Positions 81-9,185 of a stretch of 64,000 nucleotides of DNA are shown here, one piece after another. The notes beneath the pieces were generated by a model that had not been told where the DNA came from, did not search any database, and saw only the letters and a program-made list of their open reading frames with translations. The stretch's first letter is position 1. Each line of letters opens with the position of its first letter. This DNA comes from an uncultured Bacilli bacterium. Its GTDB lineage: Bacteria > Bacillota_I > Bacilli_A > RF39 > UBA660. Position numbers and translations under genes: made by a program. The stretch spans positions 1 through 64,000 of the forward strand of contig CANQIL010000003.1 of assembly GCA_947624045.1 (NCBI GenBank). The letters run 5' to 3'.

Positions 81-111
81 TTGACAGACAAGCTCGGGGG
101 GGGGGTATGAT
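81..111 (+). promoter_or_regulatory. Promoter with TTGACA (81-86) and TATGAT (106-111) separated by a spacer containing G10 (96-105)
   Basis: Direct reading; homopolymeric G10 tract in an AT-rich region, upstream of the 145..2166 ORF. Confidence 0.65.
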
Positions 112-144
112 ATAGTTAAATAAAAATAGAAATAGTGGAAAAGA

Positions 145-2166
145 GTGATGGTTATGAATAGTAGGAAACAAAAATATATGATAATTGGAGCTTTATGCTT
201 AGTAGTAATTGGCTTATCAATTGGCTATGCAGTTTTATCTGCTAATTTAAAAATAGGTGGAACTGCTACTGTTCAACAAGAGAAGTGGAGTGTTATTTTT
301 GTAAGTGAAAATACTACTACTTCTAAAACTGGTAAAGCAACATGTAAAATTGGTAAAGTAACGGGAACATCCGTTACAGGCTTAAGTGCTTCTTTTAAAG
401 TACCAGGAGATTCTTGTACTTTTACTATTCCTGTTGAGAATGCTGGTACTATTGCGGCTAAGTTAACAAATGTTGATGGAATAAATACTCCTTTGTCTTA
501 TACAGTTAAATCTCCTGAAGATGAAGAAATCCTAAGAGGAAATGTTACTTATGAAGTATATTATGGTGATACGCAAATAAATACTGAAACTACTTTTGAA
601 AATATAGATATATTAGATTCTAAAGAAAAAACAACTGTAACTCTAAAAGTAGCTTTTAATAGTGAAGCTACTAGTATTCCTAATGATACTGTTACTATTA
701 AAGGACTAGACAGAACATTTATTTTTGAAAATATAGTAAGTGGAGATGGTTCATCAGGTACAGTTACACCTGTTGTAGAAACTAAACCAAATGCACCAGT
801 ACTAAATGGAGATATGATACCGGTATATTATGAAGCGACAAGTACTGAAGGGGGAGTATGGAAAAAGGCTGATTCAAGTAATAAAGATAATAGTTGGTAT
901 GACTATGACCATCAAAAATGGGCTAATGCTGTAACTGTTACTTCTGATGTTCGAAATAATTTAATCCAAGCTGAACCAGGAGCAGAAATTGATATTAAGG
1001 ACATAAATACAATGTGGGTCTGGATACCAAGATATTCATATACGATACAAGGAATTTATGGCAGAGGCGGAACAAGTGCTGAATTACCTGGTGCCATTGA
1101 TATAAAGTTCTTATCAAAGACGGACTCAGCTGAAAATGGAACAGCTAATTACACAGGGAATGAACAAAAAAATTGGAGAACACCGGATGCTTTCAATTTT
1201 GGTGGAACAACCCAGGATGGAATATGGGTAGGAAAGTTTGAAATAACTGGTTCATTAGAAAATAATTGTATAGATTCATCATGCAATGTAAGTAATGTAA
1301 CAATAAAACCAGGATTAACTTCACTTAGAAGTCAAAAAAATTCGAGTTTCTTCTATGCTGCAAGAAGTATGCAAAAAACGTATTATTCCACTTATGGATT
1401 TAATACGGATAAAGGCGACTTGCATATGATGAAAAATGATGAATGGGGAGCAGCAGCCTATCTATCACAAAGTAAATATGGAAAACACGGTAATCCTGAC
1501 TATTTTGGAAAATATGAAGAGGTATATCAAAACAAATCAAGTGAATATATAACAGGGAACAGTAACGGAACACCGAGCCAAAATGATTATGCATCTAAAC
1601 AATATGCCTATAATGATATGACTGATTTAGGAGATGGCAAGGGTCAAGCAGGACCTGGAGCTTCTACAACAGGAAATATTTACGGAATATATGATATGAG
1701 TGGTTGTAGTTGGGAAAGTGTTATGGGAGTATTAGCCTACTATCAAGATGATTCACCAATGAGTGGAAATTCTACAATATTGAATTCAGGCTTTACAGGA
1801 AAAGTATTAGAAAATGAAGATTATATTGACTTTATAAATGATCCATCAATTTCTTTCCCAAATTCAAAATATTACAATTTATATAAAGTTGCGACGACAA
1901 AAGAGGGAATGCCTCTAAAGTCTGACTTAAAAAATTCAGAAAAAGCTTGTAATGGTGAAGTATGTTATGGACAAGCACTATCAGAAACAGCAGGTTGGTA
2001 TGGTGATTATGCGGGATTTGTATATCCGAAAGATACTTGGTCATCGCGTGGTGGTAGTTATAGTAAACTCATTATTGCAGGTGTGTTCTCTTCTCACACT
2101 AATAGCGGTGATTCTACTGGTATTGATAGTAGTACAAGTACTCGTTTCGTTTTAACACCTCAATAG
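145..2166 (+). CDS. Surface protein: TasA/camelysin-like N-terminal domain plus FGE-sulfatase/C-type-lectin-like C-terminal domain
   Basis: N-term GYAVLSANLKIGGTATVQQEKWSV matches the three proteins at 38.8-41 kb; C-term has MWVWIPRYSY, GIYDMSGCSWE, SRGGSYS, AGVF, TRFVLTPQ. Start could be 148 or 154. Confidence 0.75.
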   Translation: MMVMNSRKQKYMIIGALCLVVIGLSIGYAVLSANLKIGGTATVQQEKWSVIFVSENTTTSKTGKATCKIGKVTGTSVTGLSASFKVPGDSCTFTIPVENAGTIAAKLTNVDGINTPLSYTVKSPEDEEILRGNVTYEVYYGDTQINTETTFENIDILDSKEKTTVTLKVAFNSEATSIPNDTVTIKGLDRTFIFENIVSGDGSSGTVTPVVETKPNAPVLNGDMIPVYYEATSTEGGVWKKADSSNKDNSWYDYDHQKWANAVTVTSDVRNNLIQAEPGAEIDIKDINTMWVWIPRYSYTIQGIYGRGGTSAELPGAIDIKFLSKTDSAENGTANYTGNEQKNWRTPDAFNFGGTTQDGIWVGKFEITGSLENNCIDSSCNVSNVTIKPGLTSLRSQKNSSFFYAARSMQKTYYSTYGFNTDKGDLHMMKNDEWGAAAYLSQSKYGKHGNPDYFGKYEEVYQNKSSEYITGNSNGTPSQNDYASKQYAYNDMTDLGDGKGQAGPGASTTGNIYGIYDMSGCSWESVMGVLAYYQDDSPMSGNSTILNSGFTGKVLENEDYIDFINDPSISFPNSKYYNLYKVATTKEGMPLKSDLKNSEKACNGEVCYGQALSETAGWYGDYAGFVYPKDTWSSRGGSYSKLIIAGVFSSHTNSGDSTGIDSSTSTRFVLTPQ

Positions 2167-6372: not shown

Positions 6373-6531
6373 ATGAAAGATATAATATACATAAGAATAG
6401 ACAAAGAAATTAAACAGAAGTTAGATATGTTAGCCTTAAAAGATAATAGAAGTTTAAATAATTATATAGTAACGCTCTTAACAAAATTTGTGGAAACGCA
6501 AGATAAAGAAAAGGAAAAAGAAAAAAATTAG
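6373..6531 (+). CDS. Small ribbon-helix-helix (Arc/CopG-like) protein, 52 aa, not in the supplied ORF list
   Basis: Translated by hand: MKDIIYIRIDKEIKQKLDMLALKDNRSLNNYIVTLLTKFVETQDKEKEKEKN*; RHH-like pattern; directly upstream of 6552. Confidence 0.65.
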   Translation: MKDIIYIRIDKEIKQKLDMLALKDNRSLNNYIVTLLTKFVETQDKEKEKEKN

Positions 6532-6551: not shown

Positions 6552-9185
6552 ATGAAAAAATTTAACAAATATATCCTAGCATTAATAGTAATAACGGTAG
6601 TAGTAATGACTATAGGTTATTCTGCTTTAAATAGTGAATTAAATATTACGGGAGATGTTAATTATCGACCAGAAAAAGATGTTAGAATTACTAGTTTTAC
6701 AACTAGTGAAAAACCTAGTGAAATGACAGTTGAGTATGCAGATTTTTCTAAACATGAAATTAAGCTTGGTTATACTACAACTGGAGAATGTAGTATAACT
6801 TATACAGTTAAAGTAGAAAACTTTTCAGCTGTAAATATGGGTATTTTAAGTATAAGTGGATTAGATGGAAATATAGAAGTACAAAAAGATATTATTGGTA
6901 AAAAATTAGTAGGTCCTGCTAGTAGTAATACTTTTACTATTACGTTTAAACCTACAACGGCAGAAATAAAAAAGACATATTTATTAACTTTTAATTTTAA
7001 ACAAGTATTTACTGTTACTTATAATGGTTTTAGTAATATTGATGATTATAAAAAAGAAATATTCATGGGAGAAGAATATTCACAAAATTTTGGTAGTAGT
7101 GCTCCTAAAAATATAGAAGTAACAATGAATGGAGAAATACTAAATACTTATAGTTATACTAGTGGTATTTTAACAATACCTAATGTATCAGGAAATTTAG
7201 TAATTAATGGAAATAATGCTCCATCATTTAAAGATAGTTGTGAAAATCATCCGAATGCTCCAGTTTTAAATGGAGATATGATTCCAGTTGTTTATGATGA
7301 AGAAAATCAAACTTGGGTGAAGCAAGATTTGTCTAAAAGCTATGATTATTGCAATCAAGTATGGGCCAATGCTGTAACAGTGAAAAATACAGTTAAAGAC
7401 TTATCAGGAAATAACAATGATGGATTAATTCGTGGTAATGCTATTATTGGCAATGGAGAAGCTACTTTAGATGGAGTAGATGATTATATAAATTGCGGAT
7501 TATATCGATATGATTTTAAAAGTGAAATATCATATGTAGTAAAGATTAGAAATGAAAGTGATACTAAAGGATTACTTATTGGTAACTGGGATGCTGGCGG
7601 TGGTGGTCTTAATATTTATGCACATGATAAAATATTTTTTGAATTATATGTAAATGATGGTTATAAGTACGTATATGGAGTGTTAAAAAGTAACGATTAT
7701 AATACAATAGTGGCAACATATGATGGGTCAGATATGAAATTATATATAAATGGTGAATTAGCAGGTTCTACTCCTGTAGTTGGTAGTATAAAGTTATCTA
7801 CTGCTTCTATGTCTTTAGGGGCTAATCTTACAGAAATGGATATATTAGATTCTAGTACAACGGCTAGAGTCAATATAAATGATGTTTTAGTGTTTAATAA
7901 AGCTTTAAGTGATGACGAAATAAAGGCACATTATAGTAATGAAGTTAGCTTGGGACAAACGCAACCATTACTTTATTATAATTTTGAAGATGCTAGTAGA
8001 GAATATTATAAGAAAGCTAATAATGGTACTTCAATTAGTATGGATGATATTAATACAATGTGGGTATGGATACCAAGATATTCATATACAATTCAAGGAC
8101 CTTATGGTCGAGGTGGAGCAAGTACAGCATTACCTGGTGCAATCGATATAAAGTTTTTATCTGAAACTGACCCAATTGAAAGTGGAAAAGCCAATTACAT
8201 AGGAAATGAAGAAAGCGAATGGAAGACACCAGATGCCTTTAACTTTGGAAGGACTACGCAAGCAGGAATATGGGTCGGAAAATTTGAAACAGCAGGAGAG
8301 TTAGCAAGTGCTTGTACAAGTGAAAGTTGTACTGTAAACAAATTATCTATAAAGCCAGATATGTCGTCTTTAAGAAGTCAAAAAGTAAGTAGTTTCTTCT
8401 ATGCCGCAAGAAGTATGCAAAATGATACGGCAACTTTTGGATTTAGTGATAGTGGAGACTTGCATATGATGAAGAATGATGAGTGGGGAGCAGTAGCTTA
8501 TCTTTCCCAAAGTAAATATGGAAAATATGGAAATACTGATTATACTGGACCTAATAAGGAAATTTATCAAAATAAATCAGATAAATATATAACAGGTTCA
8601 AGCAATGGAACACCAAGTCAAAATGATACAAAAAATCCGCAATATGCTTATAATAATATGACGGAATTAGGAGATGGCAAAGGACAAGCTGGACCTGGAG
8701 CTTCAACTACTGGAAATATTTACGGAATATACGATATGAGTGGAGGAACATGGGAATATGTAATGGGAGTACTTGCTTACAATGAAGATGATACACCAAT
8801 GAGTGGAAAATCAACTACATCTAATTCTGGCTTTAATGGAAAAGTATATGAATCTGGTGCTTATGATGATTTTATAAACTATTCATTTCCAGATAATAAA
8901 TATTTCAATTTATATAAAGTTGGAACAAAAGTTGGTGAAATGCCATCAAGCTCAACTTTGACAAATTCACAAAAAGCCTGTGATGGGGGAATATGTTATG
9001 GACAAGCCTTATCAGAAACTACTAATTGGTATGGAGATGGGAGCGGATTCGTATACCGCGAGCTCCCGTGGCCCGTACGCGGCGGTTACTTTAGTTATAC
9101 CACTGTTGCAGGAGTGTTCGGCTCGAGCAGCTCTTCCGGCAACGCTCACAGCACCTACGGGTCCCGTTTCGTTTTCGCTCCTTGA
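6552..9185 (+). CDS. Surface protein: TasA-like/Ig-like N-term, LamG/concanavalin-like middle domain, FGE/C-type-lectin-like C-term
   Basis: LamG-like DLSGNNNDGLIRGNA..GDGVDDYINCG-type segment and IATYDGSDMKLYINGELAG; C-term paralogous to 145..2166; ends VRGGYF..AGVF..GSRFVFAP. Confidence 0.78.
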   Translation: MKKFNKYILALIVITVVVMTIGYSALNSELNITGDVNYRPEKDVRITSFTTSEKPSEMTVEYADFSKHEIKLGYTTTGECSITYTVKVENFSAVNMGILSISGLDGNIEVQKDIIGKKLVGPASSNTFTITFKPTTAEIKKTYLLTFNFKQVFTVTYNGFSNIDDYKKEIFMGEEYSQNFGSSAPKNIEVTMNGEILNTYSYTSGILTIPNVSGNLVINGNNAPSFKDSCENHPNAPVLNGDMIPVVYDEENQTWVKQDLSKSYDYCNQVWANAVTVKNTVKDLSGNNNDGLIRGNAIIGNGEATLDGVDDYINCGLYRYDFKSEISYVVKIRNESDTKGLLIGNWDAGGGGLNIYAHDKIFFELYVNDGYKYVYGVLKSNDYNTIVATYDGSDMKLYINGELAGSTPVVGSIKLSTASMSLGANLTEMDILDSSTTARVNINDVLVFNKALSDDEIKAHYSNEVSLGQTQPLLYYNFEDASREYYKKANNGTSISMDDINTMWVWIPRYSYTIQGPYGRGGASTALPGAIDIKFLSETDPIESGKANYIGNEESEWKTPDAFNFGRTTQAGIWVGKFETAGELASACTSESCTVNKLSIKPDMSSLRSQKVSSFFYAARSMQNDTATFGFSDSGDLHMMKNDEWGAVAYLSQSKYGKYGNTDYTGPNKEIYQNKSDKYITGSSNGTPSQNDTKNPQYAYNNMTELGDGKGQAGPGASTTGNIYGIYDMSGGTWEYVMGVLAYNEDDTPMSGKSTTSNSGFNGKVYESGAYDDFINYSFPDNKYFNLYKVGTKVGEMPSSSTLTNSQKACDGGICYGQALSETTNWYGDGSGFVYRELPWPVRGGYFSYTTVAGVFGSSSSSGNAHSTYGSRFVFAP
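9039..9182 (+). other. Candidate DGR variable region at the 3' end of the 6552..9185 gene
   Basis: Hand count 86/144 G+C (~60%) and about 22 A, with an abrupt boundary; run of codons ending C/T with varied first two bases (tac cgc .. ctc .. tac ttt agt tat .. ggc .. agc agc tct tcc .. cac agc acc tac). Confidence 0.65.

Follow-up and report, generated by a model that had tools for sequence, protein, structure and literature searches.

A candidate poly-G spacer switch shared by 32 promoters of a DGR-related surface-protein family in an uncultured Bacilli bacterium

The first promoter in the window (the whole stretch of 64,000 nucleotides analysed here) carries a run of ten G residues, G10, between its -35 and -10 elements. 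This run is very probably a slipped-strand spacer switch of a sigma-A-type promoter, one of 32 such promoters that appear to serve a single family of surface proteins derived from the targets of diversity-generating retroelements (DGRs). The copy in the window, which was the only one available to the preliminary description, is one of these 32, and the retroelement connection is not visible from the window itself.

The promoter at the window start and its copies in the genome

The coordinates of the promoter and of the genes related to it are given in Table 1. The reading of the promoter as TTGACA, a 19-nt spacer with G10, and TATGAT at positions 81–111 is exact, the spacer consisting of the nine bases GACAAGCTC followed directly by the ten G residues (87–105). 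The earlier remark that no comparable G run exists in the window also holds, as all other runs of G or C in the 64 kb are of five bases or fewer. A surface protein is indeed predicted 3' of the promoter, but the GTG at 145 proposed as its start is not retained: the likely start is the ATG at 154 (MNSRK...), which is the common start of the paralogs.

Table 1. Positions of the promoter elements, genes and variable segments discussed in the text (window coordinates unless a contig is named).
Feature	Position	Strand	Basis or remark
-35 element TTGACA	81..86	+	Identical hexamer in 32 of 32 cassettes
Spacer flank GACAAGCTC	87..95	+	Same nine bases in cassettes on C24, C33 and in congener G001
G10 homopolymer within the spacer, putative slippage switch	96..105	+	Sequence; genome-wide tract counts
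-10 element TATGAT	106..111	+	Among the 32 cassettes, TATGAT in 19 and TATGCT in 13
5' leader ATAGTTAAATAAAAATAGAAATAGTGGAAAAGAGTG..., common to cassettes	112..153	+	Purine-rich ribosome-binding-site candidate at about 137–145
Secreted or anchored surface protein (predicted), member of the DGR-target family	154..2166	+	N-terminal hydrophobic segment MIIGALCLVVIGLSIGYAVLSA; C-terminal FGE-sulfatase/C-type-lectin-like domain
Diverged VR-like C-terminal segment of gene 154–2166	2024..2163	+	Comparison with three template repeats
Small HicB/ribbon-helix-helix-type ORF, just 5' of the second family member	6373..6531	+	
Second family member, with LamG insert and the same C-terminal domain, without G tract	6552..9185	+	
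Variable region of the second member	9054..9184	+	Differences from the C29 template repeat are adenine-specific
Members with the ~110-nt upstream block	C10:24430, C14:14879, C2:43952, C30:3491, C36:2564, C39:93, C19:24685		

Base 1 of the window is base 1 of contig C3, leaving 95 bases of visible DNA 5' of the tract. These 95 bases match the end of contig C24 (C24:20966-21060, minus strand) with one mismatch, both contigs start at the same base, and the near-identical stretches precede different members of one gene family. They may represent a repeated element or the boundary of a recombination event.

The genome (1.65 Mb, 29% GC, a fragmented assembly of 83 contigs) contains 38 tracts of nine or more G residues, counted on both strands, against about 0.1 expected from base composition. 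Thirty-two of the 38 lie in a cassette of the form TTGACA-N9/10-G9..11-TATG[A/C]T, for which the reversed-pattern control gives none; a stricter search returns 31 matches, again with none in the control. Tract length within the 32 cassettes is G10 in 28, G9 in three and G11 in one. Across the 456 kb of the genome used for G-run and spacer statistics, the counts of G runs are bimodal (64 of G5, 1 of G6, 0 of G7, 0 of G8, 3 of G9, 31 of G10 and 2 of G11). Because of this gap at G7–G8, the tract seems to be maintained rather than drifting, and the gap together with the 38 tracts rules out a single chance run. Of the remaining six tracts, four have other promoter-like surroundings (C69, C79) and two lie on C35. 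The latter (G10 at L032:3224-3233 and G9 at L033:4501-4509) are not in a promoter setting and look intragenic; they may be contingency tracts in coding sequence, or C35 may not belong to the bin.

Tract length, spacer optimum and rival explanations

Tracts of different length occur behind identical flanks, as seen between paralogous copies rather than within a population or between strains of one species. In this genome the flanks ACACCCAAT, GGACGGTAT and ATACCTAAT are each found with G9 or G10, and ATACCCAAT with G10 and with G11. The congener G001 has 34 tracts ranging from G8 to G12, where the flank ATACCACCCT alone is followed by G9, G10 and G11, and the congener G007 has 16 tracts of G10–G12. 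Short-read assemblies can miscount homopolymers by one.

The spacers of the cassettes measure 18 nt (3), 19 nt (26) or 20 nt (3). Promoters of family members that have no G tract (n=14) show a spacer of 17 nt in 11 cases and 18 nt in three, and in the same DNA the commonest spacer of promoters that lack G runs is 17 nt (19 cases vs 4.2 in shuffles). Because the non-G promoters have spacers of 17–18 nt, G10 probably exceeds the optimum, and expression should rise on contraction, in agreement with the earlier proposal that the loss of two G residues would give a better, 17-nt spacer. The assembled G10, with a spacer about 2 nt over the usual 17 of this genome, most likely leaves the promoter weak or OFF. 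The optimum might be longer in a spacer rich in G, which makes the ON length uncertain.

In living populations, replication slippage would alter the number of G residues and with it the distance between -35 and -10, and this distance would set the transcription of the protein encoded 3' of the promoter. Tracts of G8–G9 would be more active than G10, and with each of the 32 cassettes slipping independently, a mosaic of displayed proteins would result. The suggestion of a phase-variable promoter, made from the window alone, gains considerably from the 32 recurrences, from their placement between -35 and -10, from tract lengths of G9–G11 (G8–G12 in the congener) behind identical flanks, and from the surface-protein family that follows. 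The mismatch repair genes MutS and MutL are both intact, which rules out a loss of mismatch repair, so that a raised rate of slippage cannot be claimed on that ground.

Three other explanations have been weighed. The promoter could be phase variable with G10 as the ON state, so that contraction would lower expression; at Neisseria porA the loss of G residues shuts the promoter. The length most often assembled may be the one most often expressed, and a spacing shorter than the optimum lowers the expression of porA (PMC7864442); the assembled 19-nt spacer, however, already exceeds the 17–18 nt of the sibling promoters, and this direction of the effect is considered unlikely. Somewhat less likely still is a structural or regulatory element of fixed length, for instance a stiff stretch of spacer or the binding site of a protein, through which the 32 genes would be regulated together but not switched. 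G10 is the exact length in most copies, so the length could be fixed, and the leader and flanks are conserved. Against this, identical flanks are followed by tracts of different length both here and in the congener, related genomes keep a pure G run in the spacer despite unrelated flanks and other forms of the -10 element, and a pure homopolymer is not required of a binding site. An artefact of sequencing or assembly (a poly-G dark cycle or a homopolymer error) is hardly credible and was rejected: the assembly is fragmented and contig ends hold several of the tracts, but nearly all 32 loci have unique sequence on both sides, in every case the tract occupies the coding strand between -35 and -10, and tracts in this consistent position recur in independent assemblies of many species.

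The surface-protein family and its retroelements

All 32 cassettes that carry the putative slippage switch lead to one family of predicted secreted or anchored proteins, 29 of them directly and three by way of a first gene of about 194 aa, behind which a family member lies. When the C-terminal domain of gene 6552–9185 is used as a protein query, about 65 matching genes or fragments are retrieved, as well as pieces resembling template repeats; a family size of about 60 genes is an estimate, because contig ends truncate some members. At least half of these sit behind poly-G promoters. The C-terminal tips of the proteins vary in a fixed frame. The Pfam family PF03781 (FGE-sulfatase) is matched by six of 13 members, weakly (best E 4.8e-5), with scores below the cut-off for the C29 target and the second window gene, the two for which a cut-off was shown. 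PDB searches gave no match, and structure prediction from two sequences (AlphaFold) reached a pLDDT of 29.6, too low for the model to be usable. A fold of the FGE-sulfatase/C-type-lectin type is weakly suggested, from the weak FGE-sulfatase matches.

Three cassettes in the order target, template repeat, Avd and reverse transcriptase are present, on C1 (L177), C29 (L175) and C22 (L178), and the window genes are members of the family to which their targets belong. Pfam recognises RVT_1 and bAvd above cut-off for C1 and C29, while the reverse transcriptase of C22 is frameshifted. In 13 members, the differences between template repeat and variable region (TR/VR) are concentrated at the adenines of the template (p<1e-4 each), and an ungapped scan agrees. 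For C1:49262, 23 of 42 template adenines are changed vs 1 of 94 other bases (p=1e-13); for C41 the figures are 19 of 34 and 3 of 94; and for the second window gene, compared with the template repeat on C29, they are 17–18 of 34–35 and 5–6 of 94–96. For six of the 13 a poly-G cassette immediately precedes the gene (C41, C1:105240, C1:49262, C16:7929, C33:12743 and C9:43603), and the target of C22 is preceded by one via its operon. The tips of the family thus probably are, or once were, diversified by a reverse-transcriptase mutation system.

The gene directly behind the window promoter, 154–2166, shows no adenine-specific signature when compared with the three template repeats (17 of 33 adenines and 36 of 92 other bases differ, p=0.15). 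A GC-rich hairpin lies 3' of the variable region in the targets on C29, C1:105240, C1:49262 and C22; among the other members tested it was found in none, except for an unrelated-looking one at C43. In BPP-1, a hairpin of this kind identifies the retrohoming site. Both window genes are without it, the second having the adenine signature and the first neither feature. A role of gene 154–2166 as a current DGR target is therefore not supported, signature and hairpin both being absent, and the gene is a diverged homologue within the DGR-target family. Most members of the family are probably duplicated, frozen variants.

Inside the retroelement cassette of C29, between template repeat and Avd, is a gene for a stand-alone MutS domain-I-like protein of 146 aa (L175:7877-8317, minus strand).

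Eleven members without a G tract have a small HTH-type ORF, transcribed divergently, close upstream (e.g. C5:8778, C5:6382, C15:13483, C30:57), three of which are confirmed by Pfam, and the promoters associated with these ORFs carry dyad-like repeats. The ORF and the repeats may constitute a private repressor, as an alternative to the poly-G switch. About seven further members are preceded by a conserved block of about 110 nt (TTTTACAAAGTAAACCATAAATCTACATATTTTTACTAT...), a third kind of control region (Table 1).

These parts can be joined, tentatively and with more doubt than confidence, into a scheme of generation, archiving and selection. The DGRs would hypermutate the tips of a few cis targets, gene duplication would spread the resulting variants into a frozen archive of about 60 surface proteins, and poly-G switches acting independently (elsewhere the private repressors) would pick the archived variants that each cell displays. 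If true, two mechanisms of diversification would be combined in one surface family.

Comparable systems and distribution in relatives

The best-known cases of poly-G phase variation come from pathogens. Treponema pallidum TP0126 and the tpr genes have G homopolymers in or near surface-protein promoters, as here. In TP0126 the poly-G tract lies between -35 and -10, and the promoter is optimal at a distance of 17 nt (PMC7864442). In contrast to Treponema, there are 32 near-identical cassettes in the present genome, they precede one paralogous family apparently derived from DGR targets, and the organism is a low-GC uncultured bacterium. The porA gene of Neisseria meningitidis likewise has a poly-G tract between -35 and -10 that sets the length of the spacer (PMC7864442), but porA is a single locus and encodes a porin, and a change in tract length may act in a different direction there than in the present cassettes. 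Bifidobacterium breve is a gut commensal with G-tract slippage in its pilus genes, and G tracts in promoter spacers are also mentioned in the same study (PMC9187656); the pilus switches described there are frameshifts inside the coding sequence.

The order of target, template repeat, Avd and reverse transcriptase, the adenine-specific TR/VR differences and the C-terminal variable regions are shared with DGRs of the Bordetella phage BPP-1 type and with multi-target cellular DGRs. Sulfatase-modifying factors are known among the targets of multi-target DGRs (PMC6642488). What differs here is that about 60 members occur in one 1.65-Mb genome, at least half of them behind poly-G promoters, and that most members are without the hairpin and without a recent signature. 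No paper in the literature searched links slippage promoters with the targets of DGRs. The family that would be switched in this genome is also the one that appears to be diversified by retroelements. If tract lengths vary in reads, metagenomes could show which surface variants are switched on in each population, and the dynamics of a surface repertoire would become measurable without culture.

Among 146 sampled genomes of the bacterial family, the pattern TTGAC-N2..14-G8+ is present in 50, and the reversed control gives almost none. In the relatives sampled for this, the genes behind such tracts mostly encode secreted or anchored proteins, and some encode pilin-like proteins or acyltransferases. 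Poly-G switching in this uncultured low-GC family seems to operate at the scale of a regulon, with dozens of copies per genome serving families of surface proteins. When genomes with tracts were scored by this pattern and DGR-type reverse transcriptases were counted at ≥100 bits, both occurred together in 12 genomes, with 11.3 expected (p=0.84), and a family-wide link between the two was rejected. Because both occur independently across the family, poly-G promoters appear to be a habit of the family as a whole, whereas their pairing with DGR-derived proteins seems peculiar to the present lineage. Single poly-G promoter-like spacers, of G10–G13, were also seen in L052, L070, L071 and L073, in records titled Clostridia, Clostridiales and Magasanikbacteria.
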